Origin: a virus
Reading direction: 5' to 3' (one strand)
IMG/VR virus record: IMGVR_UViG_3300047408_000176
Location: 1-26,176 of that record
Length of the DNA stretch: 26,176 nucleotides
A model generated the notes under the pieces. The model was not told where the DNA came from. It made no database searches and was given only the letters and a program-made list of their open reading frames with translations. A program made the translations under genes and the position numbers. This document shows, piece by piece, positions 800 through 26,176 of this stretch (position 1 is its first letter; each line of letters opens with the position of its first letter).

Positions 800-996
800 G
801 GCCTCCATTCCCAGGTGCCCCACGGCGTCAGCCGGAAGCCGCCCGGATTGCTGAACCGGAACGACGTAGTGCAGAAGTGGGTCAGGTACTCGTAGAGCGT
901 GCCGCCGCAGCGAGCGCACGTCCCGCACGGCTTCGCGGCGCTAGTTGAAGCGGCAGCATCAGAGTCACGATCAGATCCAGGCGTGAAAGAACTCAC
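793..996 (-). CDS. 67-aa zinc-ribbon-like protein
   Basis: The GTG start at 996 is fused to the stop of the T5orf172 gene in a GTGA overlap. After a serine/alanine-rich N-terminus, the centre reads CGTCARCGG followed later by HFC, giving three cysteines in CxxCxxC spacing plus a His/Cys that could complete a zinc site. The tail is aromatic (GTWEWRPW). This looks like a small metal-binding adaptor of the kind common in actinophage early regions. The function is unknown. Confidence 0.7.
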   Translation of the reverse strand: MSSFTPGSDRDSDAAASTSAAKPCGTCARCGGTLYEYLTHFCTTSFRFSNPGGFRLTPWGTWEWRPW

Positions 997-1367
997 GGCA
1001 CCTCCTCGACTTTGCTCAGTACGCGCTTCGCCAACTCATCCCAGCGCTCGTCATCGGTCAATTCGGGTGTGGGCGGATCAGGCTCGATGAACTCGCGTGG
1101 TGGATCCGAAAGCTCAGTGAGCGTCCTCAGCAGATCCGGCGTTGGCCAGAACCACTCGCCACGGATCCGATAGAGAGAGAACCGCTCATGCAGCGACTCC
1201 TCGAGCTCGCGTGCTTCGCGATAGCCACCCACGACAGACCGTTGACCGATGAGATGCAGCTCGTTCGGATTGCCAACCTGGAGGTTGGCTAGCCTGTCCT
1301 GTGGCGAGCCGGCGACACCCATTTTGATCGGGCCGTTTCGTCCTTGCTTGAGGAAATAGACGTACAA
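993..1367 (-). CDS. T5orf172 / GIY-YIG-superfamily protein
   Basis: The 124-aa product begins MYVYFLKQGRNGPIKMGVA. Then come an arginine in a helix (SPQDRLANLQ), a segment ending in ELHLIGQ, and a second helix with ExxLHERFSLYRIRGEWF. This order of elements is that of the T5orf172/MUG113 branch of the GIY-YIG nuclease fold. The C-terminal third is proline- and acid-rich and probably flexible. The start is TTG at 1367, supported by an excellent GGAGG Shine-Dalgarno 6 bases upstream and by a 147-bp upstream gap. Other T5orf172 proteins are DNA-binding or DNA-cutting. Whether this one cuts DNA is not known. Confidence 0.8.
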   Translation of the reverse strand: MYVYFLKQGRNGPIKMGVAGSPQDRLANLQVGNPNELHLIGQRSVVGGYREARELEESLHERFSLYRIRGEWFWPTPDLLRTLTELSDPPREFIEPDPPTPELTDDERWDELAKRVLSKVEEVP

Positions 1368-1514
1368 CTAATCCTCCAAAACCCAGGTGACAGCACGCAC
1401 AAGCGTTGCCTGATCTGACTTCTGGGGACTTGACGCCTTTAGTTCCCAAACGGGGCTGTGAGCCGCATGGCTGCAAGTGTGAGAGTGGGGATTTTGCGGC
1501 TGGAGGAACATGCT
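1368..1514. other. 147-bp intergenic region downstream of the integrase cluster
   Basis: This is the largest non-coding gap in the early operon, between the 66-aa gene and the T5orf172 gene. It contains imperfect inverted repeats on the minus strand: AGCCGCA paired with TGCGGCT about 27 bases later, and GGGAACT paired with AGTCCC around a short loop. No good promoter, T-run terminator or tRNA-like 3' end was seen. Its position near the integrase makes it a candidate attP region, but I cannot identify a core sequence. Confidence 0.35.
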
Positions 1515-1715
1515 CTAGGTTGCCTCAGCGCAGCGAGGAAGGCCGTCCTCAAAAATGACTCCCTCGCGCCAGAGGATCTCGAACTCGTCCTCCAACCGAC
1601 AGAGTTCCTTGTGGATAGCACGGGTGAGCGGCCGGTCCATGAGCTCCCGACGCTCCGCGAGATTGAGCGGAATGTTCCGGAACCGGCGGCCGTCTTCACG
1701 CGTATGCCAGTTCAC
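1515..1715 (-). CDS. 66-aa hypothetical protein
   Basis: It starts with GTG at 1715, overlapping in a GTGA the stop codon of the integrase-tail remnant at 1712-1774. That arrangement suggests the gene was once directly coupled to an integrase gene. The protein is highly charged and helical (MNWHTREDGRRFRNIPLN, then a helix with HKELCRLEDEFEILWREG). No domain is recognised. A small basic protein next to an integrase could be an excisionase, but it lacks a clear winged-helix pattern, so this is only a guess. Confidence 0.65.
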   Translation of the reverse strand: MNWHTREDGRRFRNIPLNLAERRELMDRPLTRAIHKELCRLEDEFEILWREGVIFEDGLPRCAEAT

Positions 1716-1774
1716 GCCGCGTCTCCGACGAGGCTAAGTACCCGGTCGCCGAGCTCATCCATATTCGGATGTGA
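1712..1774 (-). pseudogene. Remnant: second copy of the integrase C-terminal 20 codons
   Basis: Read on the minus strand, 1774-1712 encodes SHPNMDELGDRVLSLVGDAA and a TGA stop. The intact integrase ends SHPNMDQLGERVLRLVGGAA and TGA (1981-1919). By hand alignment, 16 of 20 residues and 45 of 63 bases match, with most differences at third codon positions, so the copy diverged while still coding. Homology starts immediately after the catalytic tyrosine codon of the integrase. The stop of the 48-aa gene lies 2 bases before the remnant, and the remnant's stop overlaps the GTG of the 66-aa gene. It appears to be the 3' scar of another integrase allele. Confidence 0.85.
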
Positions 1775-1775
1775 A

Positions 1776-1922
1776 TCAGGATCCACGGTCAGCCTTCAGG
1801 TCAGCGATGACGCAGGCTGCGCCGAGCGCGACTACGCCGACGATCTGCCAGGTGCGGCCCCAGGTTCCGAGTGCCGCAAAACATGCAAGCACTGTGAGGC
1901 CAATCCCGATTAGAAGTCTCAT
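1776..1922 (-). CDS. 48-aa two-helix membrane protein
   Basis: The ATG at 1922 overlaps the integrase stop in ATGA, so it is translated in tandem with the integrase. The protein has two hydrophobic segments, approximately residues 2-19 (LIGIGLTVLACFAALGTW) and 24-41 (WQIVGVVALGAACVIADL), joined by a very short basic turn, and a charged tail. It has the size of a small phage membrane protein, but sits outside the lysis cassette. It lies exactly between the intact integrase 3' end and the diverged copy of that end, so it may be a recently exchanged accessory (moron-like) gene. Confidence 0.75.
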   Translation of the reverse strand: MRLLIGIGLTVLACFAALGTWGRTWQIVGVVALGAACVIADLKADRGS

Positions 1923-2842
1923 GCGGCACCCCCGACCAGCCTTAGAACGCGCTCTCCGAGCTGATCCATGTTGGGATGGCTGTATGTGTCGCTGGTAGTG
2001 GCGATCGATTCGTGGCCGAGCATCACCTTCAAGTCCTCGAGGTCGACGCCGTAGCCGCGCATTGCCGTGACGAACGAGTGGCGGCCCATGTGCGGATTCC
2101 GATACCGGACACCCGACGCGCCGATCTGTTTCGTCCACCACCGCTCGAACGTCGTGTTGCTTATGGGCGTGTCGTGGGTGACGACTGACCGTCCGCCTGG
2201 CTGTTTCGGCCACACGTAATCCGAGGGGTTGAGTCCTTCGAGTGTGATGAGGTCGGCGCAGGCGGTAGCCAGCCTGTCGACCATCGGGACGCGGCGTTCC
2301 TTCCTGCCTTTCGCGCCCTCGATCACGATCACCTGACGCCGCACCAGATCCAGTCTCCGTGCGGTCAACAGCATCGCCTCAGACCGTCGGAGCCCAGCCC
2401 ACAACATCAACGTCATCAGCTCGCCGTGCGGCGACTGGAGGGCACACAGGGCGTCCGTCTCAGCCTTCGTGAACACGTCGTAGTCCCGCTTCGGCCGATA
2501 CTGGAACGCCGGCAAAAGATCCACAGGGTTCCCGGGGATGCGGCGTGTCTTGTAGCCCCACCGGAACCAGTTATTCCAGGCAGCCTTGACGATATGCCGT
2601 GACCCGACCGGGTACGTCTTCAACACATGCGCGAGATCACCGTCGGTGAAGTCGGTGAACTCATGCCGCGGGAAAGCCCGCAAGATGGCAGCCGCATAGG
2701 CCTCGTATGCTTCGAGTGTGCGGGACGCGTAGTTGCCCAGCTCGAGCCACGCGAGCCAATCGGCCAGATCCCGCGCGGCTCGAGCCTCGCGGTGGCGAAT
2801 ATCACGCAGGGGGTCGCAGCCTACGCTGGCGAGCGCGCTCAT
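1919..2842 (-). CDS. int: Tyrosine recombinase / integrase
   Basis: The protein is 307 aa. Residues 20-100 form a core-binding SAM-like domain (ending NWFRWGYKTRRIPGNP), and residues 120-300 form the catalytic domain. The catalytic set is complete: R152 in GLRRSE, a lysine near 178 in GAKGRKERRVP, H251 and R254 in HMGRHSF, H277 in LGHESI, and nucleophile Y287 in TSDTYSH. This is the enzyme for site-specific integration and, with a directionality factor, excision, which marks the phage as temperate. The ATG at 2842 overlaps the preceding stop in ATGA, and its own stop overlaps the 48-aa gene. Having an integrase inside a long early operon is unusual, since regulation would be shared with replication genes. 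The attachment site was not found. Confidence 0.95.
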   Translation of the reverse strand: MSALASVGCDPLRDIRHREARAARDLADWLAWLELGNYASRTLEAYEAYAAAILRAFPRHEFTDFTDGDLAHVLKTYPVGSRHIVKAAWNNWFRWGYKTRRIPGNPVDLLPAFQYRPKRDYDVFTKAETDALCALQSPHGELMTLMLWAGLRRSEAMLLTARRLDLVRRQVIVIEGAKGRKERRVPMVDRLATACADLITLEGLNPSDYVWPKQPGGRSVVTHDTPISNTTFERWWTKQIGASGVRYRNPHMGRHSFVTAMRGYGVDLEDLKVMLGHESIATTSDTYSHPNMDQLGERVLRLVGGAA

Positions 2843-3210
2843 GCGACTTCTTCACCACGGCGCAGCCGGCCACGCAGAATCGTCGCCAACCGCTCAGCTT
2901 CTTCACGTTCCGCCCGAGCCCGGTTCGCCTCAGCCGCATCAAGTGAAGCCTGGGCAGCCTCCGACACGGTCATGTCCGACTTTTTCCGCCAACCACCACG
3001 GCGGCGCCGGACTCGCCTGACGGTCGCCTCCGGATGCCTGGTTTCCCGGTGGCGGCGGGCGCGTTCACGGCCGACCCCGGCCGGTCCTGTGTACGTCCAG
3101 CGGCAGAAGAGGCAGGATTCGACGACGGGTTGTGCGTCGCGGTCGGCTTCTGCTTCGGCGCGGAGTTCGGCCATTGGTTTGCCGAGCCACCCTGACTTGT
3201 GATCGGTCAC
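2839..3210 (-). CDS. 123-aa zinc-finger, coiled-coil protein
   Basis: The start is chosen as GTG at 3210 because it overlaps the upstream HNH stop in GTGA; another in-frame GTG at 3240 would overlap more. The N-terminal part is acidic and helical (MAELRAEAEADRDAQ). The centre has CLFCRWTY followed by a basic RHRETRH, a C-x2-C...H-x3-H arrangement like a C2H2 finger. The C-terminal 50 residues, from KKSDMTVSEAAQASL to the end, are a long Ala/Glu/Arg helix likely to form a coiled coil. It may bind DNA next to the integrase, but no family was recognised. Confidence 0.7.
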   Translation of the reverse strand: MTDHKSGWLGKPMAELRAEAEADRDAQPVVESCLFCRWTYTGPAGVGRERARRHRETRHPEATVRRVRRRRGGWRKKSDMTVSEAAQASLDAAEANRARAEREEAERLATILRGRLRRGEEVA

Positions 3211-3659
3211 GCGGCCTTCTTCTTCGCGTGATGAAGGCACGTGTGTTCAGCAGCCGACAGCACCTCGAGGTTCTCGAGCCGGTTATCAAGCTTGTCGCCG
3301 TTCTTGTGGTGAACCTGATAGCCGGGCGGGATACTGATTCCAGCGTTGAAGAGGACTAACCGATGAGCGAGCGCGTTTCCGTCGCTTGCAGCTAAGGGAT
3401 GATCGCGGCCAACCCAAACGCGGCCGTATCCCTGAGTAGTGGGAACGAGTGGCCTGTGTCCCTTGACGTATTTGCGTCCAGGACGAGTTCCTTCACCGCA
3501 ACCGCAGGAGCAAGGACGTGGTGGTAGTCGTGATGCCGCCCCCGCACACTGGCGCTCACAAAATCGCTTCCGCTTCCATTGTGCATCGCTGTGCTTGGGA
3601 TGGCGGACAAGTCGCTCGCCGCAATATTCACAACAGCGCTCAGCGAAGCCCGCAGACAC
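3207..3659 (-). CDS. HNH endonuclease with N-terminal zinc fingers
   Basis: The domain order is a treble-clef-like CEYCG...FCERQC near residues 10-40, a CSCGCGEG knuckle followed by a KGHRP motif, then an HNH_3-type core from about 75 to 140. The core reads GYGRVWVGRDHP, AHRLVL, and the metal finger HHKNGDKLDNRLENLEVL with AEH. This is the form found in free-standing phage homing-type endonucleases. The start is probably GTG at 3659 (GGGGGA 7 bases upstream, 20-bp overlap with the transglycosylase gene). The frame is open up to 3848, but the extra residues resemble no HNH protein. It ends in a lysine/alanine tail and is coupled to the next gene. Confidence 0.85.
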   Translation of the reverse strand: MSAGFAERCCEYCGERLVRHPKHSDAQWKRKRFCERQCAGAASRLPPRPCSCGCGEGTRPGRKYVKGHRPLVPTTQGYGRVWVGRDHPLAASDGNALAHRLVLFNAGISIPPGYQVHHKNGDKLDNRLENLEVLSAAEHTCLHHAKKKAA

Positions 3660-4038
3660 CAGCGGTCCCCCACTCGCGAAAGCTGTTGCCGTCCTGACGG
3701 TAGATCCGCCAAGTGCGGTAAAGCTGCTCATGCGGAGACGCCGTGAACGGATAGCGCGGGTTGCCAGGATGGTTGAAGGCGACGTACCAGTGTCCCCCGG
3801 CACGCCGCCAAGTCGAGACCATGAATTGCCAGCCGCCGAAGTACCCATTTCCCGTGTTGTCGTTCATCGCGCCTTCGTGCTGGTGAATGCACATCGCCTG
3901 GGGGAGCCACCAGGCCGGCGCGTGCCAGCGGTGCCTGTGGTGTTGTGTGTGGAGCAGACCGATGACGGAGAGCATTGCCAGCCACTTGATTACTCCGCGC
4001 TCCCCGACGGGGACAGGACTTGGCGCCGACGCTTCCAC
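3640..4038 (-). CDS. Rpf/transglycosylase-like wall hydrolase
   Basis: A signal-anchor-like stretch (KWLAMLSVIGLLH, residues 18-30) precedes a single domain containing CIHQHEGAMNDNTGNGYFGGWQF. A partner segment (ASPHEQLYRTWRIYRQDG) and the ending AGVCGL follow. This pattern matches the actinobacterial transglycosylase-like/resuscitation-promoting-factor fold. E55 is the likely catalytic acid, and the Cys near 50 probably pairs with the Cys near 129. The enzyme would cleave the glycan backbone of peptidoglycan outside the membrane. The start is uncertain: GTG at 4038 overlaps the upstream gene by 49 bp, while ATG at 3975 leaves a 14-bp gap. It lies in the early operon between two HNH genes, far from the lysis cassette. 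Confidence 0.8.
   Translation of the reverse strand: MEASAPSPVPVGERGVIKWLAMLSVIGLLHTQHHRHRWHAPAWWLPQAMCIHQHEGAMNDNTGNGYFGGWQFMVSTWRRAGGHWYVAFNHPGNPRYPFTASPHEQLYRTWRIYRQDGNSFREWGTAGVCGLR
3980..4003 (-). repeat. Junction repeat, copy B (end of HNH gene / start of transglycosylase)
   Basis: On the minus strand this 24-bp stretch matches 4461-4437 at 22 of 25 aligned positions, with one gap. Both contain GGAGTAATC followed two bases later by GTGGCT. Here GGAGTAA is the last codon context of the HNH gene. The two copies are about 457 bp apart, the length of the HNH gene. Confidence 0.7.
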
Positions 4039-4442
4039 TCACTTTGCCGGCGGCGATGACAGGCGCGGCAGTGACGTTTGTCGCCGCACATGTACGTGTT
4101 CTCAGGAGTAAATTCGTGACCTTGCTTGCACGCGAGCGCTCGCCCTCTAGCCGATGCGCCACGGCGAATGTTCTCAGCCTGGGTTACTGGCTCAAGATGA
4201 ACCGGATTGACGCAATCCCGCCGACGGCACAGGTGGTCTAGTTGCAGGCCATGTGGAATCGGACCCACGAAATGTTCGTATGACCAGCGATGCGCCTTGC
4301 AGATTGTCTGGCGTCCGCCCGGACAAAAGGCTCCATAGCCACGTCGGTCAATTGAACCGCCCCACGGCCAACAGCCATTGTTCCCATCGTCGACGATGAC
4401 GAAGTTCAAGAAGCGTGCCTCTGGTGGACGCCGGAGAGCCAC
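3990..4442 (-). CDS. HNH endonuclease (HNH_3 type)
   Basis: The 150-aa protein has the classic layout. RFLNFVIV and GCWPWGGS come first, then GYGAF, AHRWSYEHFVGPIP and the metal-binding HNH core GLQLDHLCRRRDCVNPVHLEPV. A C-terminal CKQGHEFTPENTY...CRAC zinc ribbon follows, then a basic tail. The start is GTG at 4442 with GGAG 7 bases upstream. Longer in-frame starts at 4475 and 4559 would overlap the preceding gene more deeply and add no homologous sequence. The gene is flanked on both sides by a near-identical 24-25 bp junction sequence (4437-4461 and 3980-4003), as if inserted as a unit. It is most likely a free-standing homing endonuclease. Confidence 0.87.
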   Translation of the reverse strand: MALRRPPEARFLNFVIVDDGNNGCWPWGGSIDRRGYGAFCPGGRQTICKAHRWSYEHFVGPIPHGLQLDHLCRRRDCVNPVHLEPVTQAENIRRGASARGRALACKQGHEFTPENTYMCGDKRHCRACHRRRQSEWKRRRQVLSPSGSAE

Positions 4443-4461
4443 CGGATTACTCCGCCGCTCC
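4437..4461 (-). repeat. Junction repeat, copy A (end of 58-aa gene / start of HNH gene)
   Basis: This is the counterpart of 3980-4003. It contains the stop of the 58-aa gene, the GGAG Shine-Dalgarno and the GTG start of the HNH gene. Recombination between the two copies would remove the HNH gene cleanly and join the 58-aa gene to the transglycosylase gene. Confidence 0.7.
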
Positions 4462-4623
4462 AGTAGCTTGCGCATCCTCGACTCTGCGTCCAGTCGGCAT
4501 GATGTGCCCGTTCGGACACCGTGCTTCGCCCCATTCGATGCCGTCCGAGACGTTGCCATCGCTCTCGAAGGTCATCGCTTCACCGCAGGCTGGACACGAA
4601 CGAACGACTCCGAGCGTCTGCAT
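4447..4623 (-). CDS. 58-aa zinc-ribbon protein
   Basis: It begins with ATG at 4623, sharing one base with the stop of the 62-aa membrane protein (TGATG). A more upstream in-frame start at 4656 is less likely. The protein carries two knuckles, CPACGEAM near residues 10-17 and CPNGH near 36-40, giving a C2-CH zinc ribbon. The C-terminus is short and acidic/alanine rich. Similar stand-alone ribbons are frequent in actinophages, but their role is unknown. Confidence 0.75.
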   Translation of the reverse strand: MQTLGVVRSCPACGEAMTFESDGNVSDGIEWGEARCPNGHIMPTGRRVEDAQATGAAE

Positions 4624-5020: not shown

Positions 5021-5178
5021 CACGGCCGCCTCGCATCACGAAGCGCACGCCGAGCAGCCGGCCTAGTGAAGTCGAGGCTGGCGACGTGCCGTTCGAGGCG
5101 GCGCATGATCAGCCACCCGTAGAGGAGGCCGGCGGTGACGCCCAAGGTGAGGCCGATGAGGAACCAGGAGACGTTCAC
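5017..5178 (-). CDS. 53-aa small membrane protein
   Basis: The start is GTG at 5178 in a GTGA overlap with the stop of the annealing-protein gene. One hydrophobic helix covers about residues 4-25 (SWFLIGLTLGVTAGLLYGWLI). A basic cytoplasmic-looking tail rich in arginine follows (RRALRDARRPW). By the positive-inside rule the C-terminus would be cytoplasmic. The function is unknown. Confidence 0.7.
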   Translation of the reverse strand: MNVSWFLIGLTLGVTAGLLYGWLIMRRLERHVASLDFTRPAARRALRDARRPW

Positions 5179-6008
5179 GCGGCCTCGAGCTTCGTCAGCC
5201 GATCGATCAGCGAAGAGGCTTCGCCCTTGCTGAGACTGTCGCGGAGCGGACCCCAATGGAGCTCGCCGTCATCGGCCGTGTTCTTCGCGCCCTCGATCCA
5301 CAGGTCTGGGTCGGTGTCGCGCATCCGAGCCACAGCCAGGTAGAGGTGTTCCGTGTGGAGGCGGTCAGCGGCACGCAGCTTTGAGACGACGACGTCAAGC
5401 TTCTTCTTTTGGGCTGCACTTGCGGACACAGGCTCGTCCTTCTGGACAGGCTCAAACATCTCCTCGAAGGTGGCGCCAGGTAGCTCTGTCTTCTGGGATG
5501 ATTCAGCGGGGGACGGCCGCGCGTTAGGCGCTTCCGAGACGGACGGGTCCGCCTGTGGTTCCCCCGCCGAAACGTGTCCATTAGACGACGCCGAAAGATC
5601 TTCCTTCGACCAGAGATCGAGACCAACACCAAAGCGCATCGCAGCGTTCCGGAGCGCGTCGCCGATGATCTCTTTCGTGCCTTTGCCGTTCGTCTCGTCG
5701 CCATAACCGGGCCGGGTAACCTCGCCGATCGTCAGCTCGATCCAGAGTCCGCCCTTCGCGTCGAGCAGCGGCAGTCCGCGCTCGTCGACGGCTAGCGGCT
5801 TCCATGTCCATTCACGGTCGACCTGTCGAAGGCGATCTGTGATGGCGGCGTGTCCGACGTAGTCGAGGTGGACGGCCGGCAGTCCGTGATATCCGCCGCA
5901 TTCAGAGCACTTACCACGCGGATTGTCGCGCTTCGTCGGTTTCGGAAGCTTGCCAATCTGCTCGCTATCGAATGGTTTGCGGAGTGCTGCGTCCTGTTCA
6001 GGAGTCAT
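5175..6008 (-). CDS. Rad52/ERF-like single-strand annealing protein
   Basis: The 277-aa protein starts at ATG 6008 (ATGA overlap with the preceding gene). A CSECGGYH metal-like knuckle near residue 30 leads into the core: HLDYVGHAAITDRLRQVD, EWTWKP, a strand GGLWIELTIGEV, GYGDE, then KEIIGDALRNAAMRFGVGLDLW. This order, with the KxxxxDALxxAAxRFGxG signature, is that of Rad52/Rad22- and ERF-type phage annealing proteins. The middle (about 140-190) is a Ser/Pro/Glu-rich linker, and the C-terminal 80 residues are helical. It would anneal single-stranded DNA in recombination or circularisation. It is the first recognisable DNA-metabolism gene of the early operon. Confidence 0.75.
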   Translation of the reverse strand: MTPEQDAALRKPFDSEQIGKLPKPTKRDNPRGKCSECGGYHGLPAVHLDYVGHAAITDRLRQVDREWTWKPLAVDERGLPLLDAKGGLWIELTIGEVTRPGYGDETNGKGTKEIIGDALRNAAMRFGVGLDLWSKEDLSASSNGHVSAGEPQADPSVSEAPNARPSPAESSQKTELPGATFEEMFEPVQKDEPVSASAAQKKKLDVVVSKLRAADRLHTEHLYLAVARMRDTDPDLWIEGAKNTADDGELHWGPLRDSLSKGEASSLIDRLTKLEAA

Positions 6009-6169
6009 GCGTACCTTTTCGCCCACGCGATGTAGGCCTTCATGAATGCCGCAGCCAACTCCGACGACATCGATCTGGTCGGCTCGCCGTCCCCGCCCCA
6101 CGCAGGGGGTCTCTGCGGCTTCGTCATGGATTTGCGCGGGATTGAGGACGGCGAGCCCACCAGACTCAC
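6005..6169 (-). CDS. 54-aa hypothetical protein
   Basis: The GTG at 6169 overlaps the previous stop in GTGA and the stop overlaps the annealing-protein ATG. An internal ATG at 6127 (40 aa) is the alternative start. The N-terminal half is proline/basic and disordered (PSSIPRKSMTKPQRPPAWGG). The C-terminal half is a helix ending AFMKAYIAWAKRYA. No domain is recognised. Confidence 0.6.
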   Translation of the reverse strand: MSLVGSPSSIPRKSMTKPQRPPAWGGDGEPTRSMSSELAAAFMKAYIAWAKRYA

Positions 6170-15703: not shown

Positions 15704-15880
15704 TCAGCCGTCAGCCTTCCTAGGAATCGCCGGCCCATATCCGTCGAGGAGGGATGCGAGCACCCATGCGGCGAGACCGAAACAGATCAGGTCAAGCTCG
15801 CCCTGGCCGAACAGTGTGCCGTTGAAGCCGCCGATCAGGAACAGGATCAGCGCGAGAACGCGAAGGAGGAGGCCGATCAT
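15704..15880 (-). CDS. 58-aa membrane protein in the head module
   Basis: The ATG at 15880 overlaps the 76-aa gene's stop in ATGA, and its own TGA abuts the connector's ATG. It has two hydrophobic helices, about residues 2-18 (IGLLLRVLALILFLIGG) and 31-46 (LICFGLAAWVLASLL), with a FNGTLFGQGELD loop between them. A membrane protein inside a head gene block is unexpected for a virion component. Such genes recur in actinophages, and their role is unknown. Confidence 0.72.
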   Translation of the reverse strand: MIGLLLRVLALILFLIGGFNGTLFGQGELDLICFGLAAWVLASLLDGYGPAIPRKADG

Positions 15881-19445: not shown

Positions 19446-20813
19446 CTAGGTGTCTGGTTCGCTGCCGTTGCCGTTGTCGGCGCCGACCGGAAGCGCCTTC
19501 GCAAGACCCGGCTGGGTGACGTTGTCGACCGCGGGCGGCTTCAATAGCTGGACGCTCGTACCTGCGTCCGGGTCCGGGACGAGATCGGTGGGGTCGTCGC
19601 TGGCGATGTAGAGGATGATCGACTCGCGCGTGAAGCCGGCTGAGACGAGGTTGTTCGCTGCGATCGCGTTCTCGCGGCGTTCCTGCGCCTTGTCCTGAAT
19701 GTCTTCTTTCAGGGCGGGGATGTCGCGATCGTCATACCAGAGGTGCGCGCCGCTGGGGACGTTCAGGATCCCTTGGAGCGACCCACACAGGTTCCGCCAC
19801 AGAGGCCGCATCGTGCCGTCTGCGAACCGGCGGCGCGCCTGCGAGTAGTTGCTATAGGTCGCGGCTTGCAGGCCCTCAGAGAGGCCCACAATGACGGGAG
19901 GGACGCCTGCAGCGGCGGCGATCCGTGTTTCGCCTCCGCCCTGCGTGATTTTGAAGTCGATCTGCTCCGGGTTCGCCCCAACGACGGTGTAATCCGTGCC
20001 GGCACCCAGGAACAGTGTCTTGTATGCGTTCGAGGCGCCCTCATGCGATTCGCGGAACAGCTCGATCCACGGCTTCATCTTCTCGACCGAGTCGAGGTTG
20101 AACTTGACGAGCCCGTTCGGCGTCGCACCGTTCTCGAAAAACTGAAGCTTGTGCTGTGTCGCCGCCTTGTCGGCCATCACCTCACGGATCACGGGCCACA
20201 ACCAGGTTGTGCCGCGGAACCGTGACTCCGGGTCGGAGACGGGCGCGAAATGCGCCACCTGCTCGGGCAATAGCGTCACGGGAGGCACGCCACCAACGTT
20301 GCGGCCTCGAGGGTGGTACAGGTAGCCGATCACCTTCGCGTCGATGTCCCAGACGGAAGCGTCCGTGTTCGGTGACGCCGACACAATGTCGGTCCAGTCC
20401 GGCCGTAACAGCGCGAGGCCGCTGCCGCGGCGGACGATGAAAGCGTTCCCAGCCAAGTCGACCATCTGGAGGACGCGGTAGAGGAGGTCGCCTGTCGTGC
20501 CGCCAGGCCACGGGTTCTCAAGGATGGCGAGCTCCGGTGTGCCGAACATCTTGGTCGACGACGAGTTCCGCCACTGGAACGCCGCCTCCGCGAACAGCTT
20601 CGCCCTGACATCCATGACGGCGAACACGACTCCGCACGACTTGTACGCGGACCGGATGAGTGCGGTGTAGTCGCGGATCTCTTCCTGCTGCGCGTTCGGC
20701 AGCGAATACGAGACGCCCTGGTAGCTGAAGCTCGACATGAGTTCGAGCCAGGACTGGAACGAGATGGACGGGTCGGCGCGCGATTCTTCGCGGCGCCACG
20801 GTAGGAGATTCAC
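19446..20813 (-). CDS. Portal protein
   Basis: The 455-aa protein begins with GTG at 20813, in a GTGA overlap with the end of the frameshifted HTH gene; the frame stays open to 20924, but that extension has no homology character. It shows the HK97-type portal layout: YTALIRSAYKSCGVVFAVMDVRAKLF, PWPGGTTGDLLYRVLQMVDLAGNAFIVRR, LRPDWTDI, then FAPVSDPESRFRGTTWL and a C-terminal helical crown ending NGNGSEPDT. It forms the dodecameric DNA channel. It lies between the terminase block and the protease, as usual. Confidence 0.9.
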   Translation of the reverse strand: MNLLPWRREESRADPSISFQSWLELMSSFSYQGVSYSLPNAQQEEIRDYTALIRSAYKSCGVVFAVMDVRAKLFAEAAFQWRNSSSTKMFGTPELAILENPWPGGTTGDLLYRVLQMVDLAGNAFIVRRGSGLALLRPDWTDIVSASPNTDASVWDIDAKVIGYLYHPRGRNVGGVPPVTLLPEQVAHFAPVSDPESRFRGTTWLWPVIREVMADKAATQHKLQFFENGATPNGLVKFNLDSVEKMKPWIELFRESHEGASNAYKTLFLGAGTDYTVVGANPEQIDFKITQGGGETRIAAAAGVPPVIVGLSEGLQAATYSNYSQARRRFADGTMRPLWRNLCGSLQGILNVPSGAHLWYDDRDIPALKEDIQDKAQERRENAIAANNLVSAGFTRESIILYIASDDPTDLVPDPDAGTSVQLLKPPAVDNVTQPGLAKALPVGADNGNGSEPDT

Positions 20814-21012
20814 GCGGCCGCCGCCGTGTCGAACTGTGACCGCATCTTGTCGCGCGCCCGAATCAACGTCTGGAAACCGCCGCCGCCGACACCCCGTACT
20901 CCGGCGCCAACGCGCTAGTCCCACGTTCCAGCAGCACCGTGTCGAGCAGGACGTCCGTCTGCAACGGCGTCAACCGTGCGGCGACCACCAGGATCAGCAG
21001 CTTCTCGCTCAC
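20810..21012 (-). pseudogene. HTH gene with apparent single-base frameshift
   Basis: GTG at 21012 overlaps the previous stop in GTGA. The frame reads a sigma/HTH-like sequence (LTPLQTDVLLDTVLLERG, then EYGVSAAAVSRR) and hits TGA at 20863-20865 after 49 codons, in the middle of the recognition helix. In the -1 frame the natural continuation (LIRARDKMRSQFDTAAAA) runs on to TGA at 20810-20812, which overlaps the portal GTG in the operon's usual GTGA. The whole interval is 203 bp; one inserted base would give a 67-aa gene. No slippery heptamer is present, so a mutation or a sequencing/assembly error is most likely. It may correspond to a small HTH or terminase-associated DNA-binding protein. Confidence 0.75.
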
Positions 21013-21206: not shown

Positions 21207-21372
21207 GCTTCTTCAGCACCTTCAACTCGCGCTGCAACCGGGCCCATGCCCACGTCTCGACCTCTTCGTACCGCAACGGATGCACCGACCGGCACGCCTC
21301 GAGATAGTCCGCCCAGGCGATCGCTTCGATCTCGCCGCACGCCGCGAGCACCCGGTCTGTCACCGTCGCCAT
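21196..21372 (-). CDS. 58-aa hypothetical protein after terminase
   Basis: The start is ATG at 21372, 7 bases after the terminase stop; the frame extends upstream, but only as an arginine-rich shadow of terminase. The protein is helical: TDRVLAACGEIEAIAWADYLEA, then PLRYEEVETWAWARLQRELKVLKKRES. It is compact and charged, possibly a small terminase partner, though no family is recognised. Confidence 0.65.
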   Translation of the reverse strand: MATVTDRVLAACGEIEAIAWADYLEACRSVHPLRYEEVETWAWARLQRELKVLKKRES

Positions 21373-24761: not shown

Positions 24762-24931
24762 TCTTCGCCGTGCCTGATCTGGTCATCGGGCAGTTGGGCG
24801 AAGTGCCAGTCACGAAGGGCGCGCAGACTTTGTCTTTCATCAGGGTCATTGGTTGCGCGAAGTCTGCGCTCAACCACGACGGCGATGTGTAACGCCCATT
24901 CGAGACGATCGAGACGCATTAGATCGGTCAT
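24758..24931 (-). CDS. 57-aa hypothetical early protein
   Basis: The ATG at 24931 overlaps the previous stop in ATGA, and its stop overlaps the ATPase ATG in another ATGA. The product, MTDLMRLDRLEWALHIAVV and onward, is an amphipathic helix pair with a charged middle (TNDPDERQSLRAL) and ends DDQIRHGEE. It is too short for many gene finders, but both junctions are the operon's standard coupling. No family is recognised. Confidence 0.7.
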   Translation of the reverse strand: MTDLMRLDRLEWALHIAVVVERRLRATNDPDERQSLRALRDWHFAQLPDDQIRHGEE

Positions 24932-25161
24932 GCGGCGTCGAGGAGGTCGATGGCGTGGAAGTCCAACCGGACGAGCTCGCGTTGTTTCGCCTGTTGGACT
25001 TCGTCCGGGTCTAGGCGGTCTGGGTCGACTGGTTCACCTTGGAGGAGTGCGACGCAGGTGTCGAGGTCGCGCGCGAGTCGCATCGCAACCAGGATGCGTT
25101 CTGGGTGTGGGTAGCGGGCCTGTTGGCGTGCCTGGTCGTAGTCGTCGAGGAGGCGGTTCAT
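24928..25161 (-). CDS. 77-aa hypothetical early protein
   Basis: The ATG at 25161 sits in an ATGA overlap with the nuclease stop; the in-frame extension to 25257 is only a shadow of that nuclease. The product is almost wholly helical and charged (MNRLLDDYDQARQQARYPHPER, then VAMRLARDLDTCVALLQG, then PDEVQQAKQRELVRLDFHAIDLL). No known domain is seen. Confidence 0.7.
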   Translation of the reverse strand: MNRLLDDYDQARQQARYPHPERILVAMRLARDLDTCVALLQGEPVDPDRLDPDEVQQAKQRELVRLDFHAIDLLDAA

Positions 25162-25508
25162 GCCTCTGTAAGTCCTGACTGGCGCAAGACGGAGTCGCGG
25201 AAGACGGGCCATTCGCTCGAGTGAATCCACCGCAACTCGCCACGCGACGGCCACCAAGCCAGATACGCATCAGCACCAGCCAATTCAGCCGCAAGACGCA
25301 GCTTATGGCGTGCCGCAGGCCCGAAACTTTCGTACGGTCCTTGCGCAGTCGATTTCACTTCGATTAGCCGCGGCCGCGACCCATCCCGGAGGGCTACAAC
25401 GTCGGCTACACCAAGGCTTGCGGGTGCGCGGAATGCGAGCCAGTCTCGGTCTCGTAGATGGTTTCGGACTGCGAGCTCTCGCTGTGTGCCGGCGCGTTTG
25501 CCTCTCAT
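25158..25508 (-). CDS. Hjc-like / PD-(D/E)xK nuclease
   Basis: The 116-aa protein has the compact PD-(D/E)xK order: basic N-terminus with E11 in TQRELAVRNHLRD, D36 in ASLGVADVVALRD, and the E50-x-K52 pair in RPRLIEVKST. A Q/Y segment and a final strand (DAYLAWWPSRGELRWI) complete the fold. This layout corresponds to archaeal-type Hjc resolvases and related phage resolvases. It would cut branched DNA or Holliday junctions made by the annealing protein. The ATG at 25508 overlaps the previous stop in ATGA. Confidence 0.8.
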   Translation of the reverse strand: MRGKRAGTQRELAVRNHLRDRDWLAFRAPASLGVADVVALRDGSRPRLIEVKSTAQGPYESFGPAARHKLRLAAELAGADAYLAWWPSRGELRWIHSSEWPVFRDSVLRQSGLTEA

Positions 25509-25984
25509 TTGCCGGTGCCGTTGCAGTAGGTGCAGACGCCGAACCGGGTTACGCCGGTGCCATGACAGTTAGGACAGACAGGCTTAGCGCGCACTCGACG
25601 CTCATCGCAGACGCAGACGCCGTAATGCTCCCAACAACCCCGACAGATCCGGGCTGCGTCCAACTGTTCAGGCGTCATCCGGCGAAGCCGCTCGAGTGTG
25701 GTCGCGGCAGAAGGCGTGCGGGAGCGGGCCGCAGGTGTGACAGCACCCACGGCCTCGTCGTGTCCGCGACGTTGCTCACCGCCCGGCGTGCCTGCGCCGG
25801 AACTAACAACCGTGCAACACCGATTCAGCCGCTCGTAATCCGTGTACGGATTGCACGTCAGACAACGAAGCTCGCAGCAGCCGTGACAGCCGACCAGCGT
25901 TGCCCCGCAGGTCGAGCAGTGCTGGGCGTTCCATGCATGGCCGTGCCGCTCGACAGTCGCGGCAGAAGTCATGCGGTCAGACAT
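25505..25984 (-). CDS. 159-aa cysteine-rich zinc protein with DnaJ-like repeat
   Basis: Three metal clusters can be seen. The N-terminal HCSTCGATLVGCHGCCELRC with a further LTC (residues 22-45) could bind two zinc ions. A middle CRGCWEHYGVCVC lies after a Ser/Ala/Thr linker and a helix (LERLRRMTPEQLDAA). The C-terminal pair CPNCHGTG and CTYCNGTG is the CxxCxGxG repeat of DnaJ-type zinc fingers. The start at ATG 25984 overlaps the 68-aa gene by 8 bp; another in-frame ATG at 25972 is possible. No J domain is present. A protein- or nucleic-acid-binding adaptor is likely. Confidence 0.75.
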   Translation of the reverse strand: MSDRMTSAATVERHGHAWNAQHCSTCGATLVGCHGCCELRCLTCNPYTDYERLNRCCTVVSSGAGTPGGEQRRGHDEAVGAVTPAARSRTPSAATTLERLRRMTPEQLDAARICRGCWEHYGVCVCDERRVRAKPVCPNCHGTGVTRFGVCTYCNGTGK

Positions 25985-26176
25985 GCTCGATCACTTCCGC
26001 GATGGTCGTCATGCGGCGCAGTCGGAACTCGCGCAGCGGGTACTTGATCCGCAACTCCTCGACCACGCCGTTCGCGTAGCCCTCGGCTACCGGCAGGAAC
26101 TTGACCCACTCGCCGTCCGTCGCCTTCTCGTCGATGGCGTAGGTGACGATCTCCCAGCGCTGCGTCTCAGCGGCAG
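25977..26176 (-). CDS. 68-aa hypothetical protein, 3' part (gene crosses the join)
   Basis: This is the same gene as at 1-134, seen in the right-hand copy of the overlap. Its first seven bases lie beyond the window end. It stops with TGA at 25977-25979. The next gene (159 aa) starts at 25984, so the two overlap by 8 bp in different frames. The function is unknown. Confidence 0.8.
   Translation of the reverse strand, partial: AAETQRWEIVTYAIDEKATDGEWVKFLPVAEGYANGVVEELRIKYPLREFRLRRMTTIAEVIEHV
26050..26176. repeat. Right copy of 127-bp terminal direct repeat
   Basis: This is the exact second copy of bases 1-127. The two copies should be collapsed to one when the circle is closed. It lies inside the coding region of the 68-aa protein whose start codon is at 134 in the left copy. 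Confidence 0.95.

Follow-up and report, generated by a model that had tools for sequence, protein, structure and literature searches.

The end of a tyrosine integrase gene occurs twice, in diverged form, in the genome of an uncultured phage, represented here by a window of 26,176 nucleotides (the whole stretch of DNA analysed; IMG/VR record IMGVR_UViG_3300047408_000176). Two related IMG/VR contigs, G5 (IMGVR_UViG_3300045283_000109) and G4 (IMGVR_UViG_3300045141_000168), carry a single integrase tail each, beside a gene slot whose contents vary. We consider it probable that the repeat marks the seam left when related phages exchanged genes in mosaic fashion at this slot, which lies between the integrase and a conserved downstream block. 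The locus would then show legibly how such slots in phages are rebuilt, with a diverged remnant as the record of a swap at the 3' end of the integrase and a seam that preserves the signals starting the following gene. In this uncultured phage group, the comparison further locates a variable slot, bounded on one side by the integrase and on the other by a conserved attP-like block.

The integrase gene and its two tails

The integrase matches PF00589, and an alignment with the integrases of the relatives shows the elements of a Phage_integrase domain (R, HxxR, H, Y) as GLRR, HMGRH, GHES and a catalytic-type Tyr287. The last residues of the protein, after this tyrosine, are its own tail, SHPNMDQLGERVLRLVGGAA. 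Upstream of the integrase, two HNH-domain ORFs lie near each other (3207-3848 and 3990-4559, (-) strand).

An earlier note on this DNA had reported that the last 20 integrase codons recur downstream, and re-measurement bears this out: the tails share 45 of 63 bases and 16 of 20 residues, far above chance. The best ungapped match to the tail in the 518 nt downstream scores 45, against a mean of 27.6 (sd 1.3) and a maximum of 32 in 500 Markov controls. The pair is by far the longest direct repeat within 900-3000 and the top self-match across the window (E 3e-4), the record's own end repeat aside. That end repeat, an identity of 127 bp between 1-127 and 26050-26176, probably means that the record is a complete genome of 26,049 bp, circular or circularly permuted; end repeats of 127 bp are also present in G5 and in the capsid relative G1, and G4 has one of 117 bp at 96%.

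A similarity not peculiar to integrases would, according to the note, have spoken against its reading. When the copy was compared with 960 ORF ends from four related phage genomes, only three integrases reached 14-15/19, and the runners-up scored 8 and 6. By this measure the repeat is specific to the window's integrase family. The end of the GIY-YIG-type ORF, WDELAKRVLSKVEEVP, was considered as a third tail copy (8/19 like the copy) and rejected; since its G4 orthologue ends EAEWQKLLRSLR, the resemblance is native drift or chance.

The likeness between the tails ends sharply at the Ser codon that follows the tyrosine (4 matches in the 33 nt further upstream), so that the copy begins, as had been noted, right after the catalytic Tyr codon. 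Also as described, both tail stops overlap the next start, ATGA at 1919-1922 joining the integrase to the 48-aa ORF and GTGA at 1712-1715 joining the copy to the 66-aa ORF, and the 48-aa ORF lies exactly between the tails, its stop one base short of the repeat. Calling this ORF a membrane gene, as the note did, is plausible from its two hydrophobic stretches, and its codon statistics are neutral; searches of Pfam, PHROG and phages gave no match. The 66-aa ORF has no detectable relative, G5 and G4 included. Its GGAG sits within the tail copy, 7 nt upstream of the GTG.

Table 1. Features of the integrase locus and of the annealing protein gene (window coordinates).
Feature	Position	Strand	Basis or remark
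GIY-YIG-type ORF after the block	993..1367	(-)	Pfam MUG113/T5orf172
Intergenic block, TAGAGCATGTT-N8-CGCAAA-N2-CCCCACTCTCA	1368..1517	(-)	alignment; common to window, G5 and G4
66-aa ORF, GTG start within the GTGA overlap	1515..1715	(-)	stop is the block-opening TAG
Second, diverged integrase tail, SHPNMDELGDRVLSLVGDAA then stop	1712..1774	(-)	24-aa ORF also readable from GTG 1786-1784
48-aa ORF, two hydrophobic stretches	1776..1922	(-)	hydropathy
Own integrase tail, last 20 codons and stop	1919..1981	(-)	stop overlaps next start, ATGA
Tyrosine integrase, 307 aa	1919..2842	(-)	Pfam PF00589 E 9.5e-24; PHROG integrase E 7.7e-44
Single-strand annealing protein	5175..6101	(-)	PHROG 3290 E 7.8e-46

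A variable slot in related phages

A degenerate DNA pattern built on the tail recovered G5 and G4; no further close relatives came from two other DNA patterns or from alignment queries. The integrase alone as query gave no match in IMG/VR and GTDB, phage and plasmid collections yielded distant integrases only, and an alignment query against 396 genomes from the phylum to which Streptomyces gossypii belongs produced a single weak match. The window's integrase protein is 79% identical to that of G5 and 68% identical to that of G4.

Both relatives lack the repeat, the 48-aa gene and the 66-aa gene. The contents of the slot between integrase and block can be summarised as (i) empty in G5, where the integrase ends ...GTC TAG AGCATGTTC and its stop is the block-opening TAG; (ii) an open 209-aa gene (gene X) in G4, with no similarity to the window's genes and no accompanying tail repeat; (iii) the 48-aa ORF followed by the tail copy and then the 66-aa ORF in the window. 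As these contents differ, the integrase 3' end is a variable slot where genes come and go. The block, present in a single copy in each of the three genomes, begins in the window at the TAG of the 66-aa gene, and in all three the last gene before it ends on this same TAG, so that three unrelated genes terminate there. It is a candidate attP. No tRNA was found in the window or in the examined stretches of G4 and G5, Rfam gave nothing over threshold at 900-2000, and terminator-like matches were not above those in shuffles.

Past the block, the GIY-YIG-type ORF has an orthologue at the same place in G4, and G5 has an unrelated ORF just beyond the block. Different genes separate the block from the next shared gene (start GTGAGTTCTTTC), forming a second variable slot beside the first. 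Small scattered patches of 85-94% identity to the relatives occur within otherwise diverged genomes. Those at 24928-25603, 20809-21011, 21208-21366, 15729-15865 and 6004-6169 are 87-94% identical to G4/G5, and some sit at different positions in the genomes. Such patches point to frequent exchange within the phage group and to small genes that are mobile.

Origin of the second tail

The own tail and the copy differ at 18 of 60 bases, and 14 of the 18 are third positions, in agreement with the note's remark that the differences are mostly of this kind. Their divergence is comparable to that between orthologous integrases: the own tail differs from that of G5 at 18/60 and from that of G4 at 20/60, and comparisons of either window tail with the two relatives range from 15 to 20/60. 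Over 53 nt the copy is 85% identical to the G4 integrase tail. Simulated neutral decay with 18 changes kept about 9 of 20 residues, and at least 16 were kept in 0 of 20,000 runs. From this result and the third-position bias, the copy most likely accumulated its changes while it still terminated a functional integrase, rather than by decay after duplication.

We propose that a segment with an integrase 3' end and the 48-aa gene became joined to another phage, in which the recipient's own integrase would have adjoined the 66-aa gene with a GTGA overlap. The junction would have fallen just after the catalytic Tyr codon of the replaced integrase, leaving its last 20 codons behind. This remnant may have been tolerated, and perhaps kept, because it holds the GTG with which the 66-aa gene opens and the GGAG for ribosome binding; loss of the copy would remove both of these start signals. 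The direction of transfer, the recombination enzyme and the reason why the remnant persists are given here as we infer them. Phage annealing proteins of the type encoded in the window are reported to be able to recombine diverged DNA (Martinsohn et al. 2008, as cited in PMC3029335), which makes the window's own single-strand annealing protein a candidate; it was possibly the agent of the exchange.

Two observations count against a seam of this kind. The proposed parental order, an integrase joined directly to the 66-aa gene, was not found by patterns or alignment queries in the collections searched, which yielded only two relatives. Moreover, 8 informative tail sites, among them Leu300 and the AA-TGA end, group the own tail and the copy against G4 and G5, with 2 and 1 sites for the other groupings; both tails therefore seem drawn from one sub-lineage, in a comparison of four short sequences that does not tell the newcomer tail from the resident. 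The integrase body is nearest to G5 (75% nt), and neither tail is. The same grouping would result from an ancient local duplication maintained by selection, and the shared sites would be expected had the integrase 3' end been duplicated in tandem, the 48-aa gene having originated in or moved into the space between the two ends and divergence having proceeded under selection. We regard this course of events as improbable, since a non-functional duplicate would not diverge chiefly at third positions and, the upstream flanks being unrelated (4/33 nt), the duplicated stretch would need its endpoint precisely behind the Tyr codon.

The third-position bias could also reflect selection on the copy as a functional peptide. 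The C-terminal helices of tyrosine recombinases, XerA and Cre among them, dock either in cis or in trans, on a neighbour in the latter case, and control recombination (PMC3646895), so that a trans-acting tail peptide is conceivable. The 24-aa ORF, VDPDSHPNMDELGDRVLSLVGDAA, has a GTG start with AAGG 6 nt upstream, and its product would mimic the integrase C-terminal helix and modulate integrase assembly in trans; if so, it would compete with or complete that helix, tuning integration or excision. The short ORF is absent from G5 and G4, however, its codon score is near zero, and divergence inside an integrase would give an equal third-position bias, all of which makes such a peptide very unlikely.

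The earlier note had offered two readings of the repeat. The scar of an exchange is the one supported, in keeping with the diverged, integrase-specific tail and with the single tails and varied slot of G5 and G4. The other invokes a small mobile cassette, made up of the tail and the 48-aa gene, that would target the 3' ends of integrases and supply its own tail version to repair the reading frame. Such a cassette would explain the position of the 48-aa gene, precisely flanked by the two tails, and the variation of the slot in relatives, but we give it very little credence: its 207 bp hold one 48-aa ORF, no recombinase and no family match, its copies are 30% diverged (45/63, with short shared runs only), unlike the repeats of recombination sites, and gene X of G4 came without a tail repeat, with no second instance in the relatives compared.

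Comparison with known systems

Phage mosaicism and the insertion of morons involve illegitimate or homeologous joining near gene boundaries. The window resembles such cases in having a gene that is absent from a relative and junctions that fall at gene ends. It differs in keeping what would be a diverged remnant of the replaced gene, which is why the seam can be read, and in that no flanking promoter or terminator was detected beyond chance within 900-3000. Where an integrative element rebuilds the 3' end of its target gene, a gene end is likewise present twice, flanking an inserted gene. Here, in contrast, the insert has neither its own recombinase nor a near-identical core repeat, no repeat occurs at the same site in the relatives, and the repeated end belongs to the phage's own integrase, not to a host gene.

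A literature search found no papers on duplicated integrase ends. A seam of comparable form is described in mycobacteriophage Island3, where gene 68 has no counterpart in Brujita (Pope et al. 2011; PMC3029335, section 13, Fig. 5C). The last 18 residues of Island3 gp68 (about 60 bp) repeat those of the upstream gp67, which the authors of that section read as recombination at a repeated sequence, within one phage or between phages; the case was published without knowledge of the partner genome (PMC3029335). In both loci the upstream gene has its 3' end repeated past an inserted gene, and relatives without the insert have a single 3' end. The Island3 repeat, as presented there, forms the in-frame C-terminus of the inserted gene and its copies are closely related, whereas in the window the repeat lies behind the 48-aa ORF, in another frame, and is 30% diverged; section 13 does not name the upstream gene as an integrase, from which the window's repeat derives. 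By form only, the window's repeat may be assigned to the type of seam described for Island3 67/68. General views are unchanged by it: the recombination scar appears real but ordinary, and of a kind already described in mycobacteriophages.
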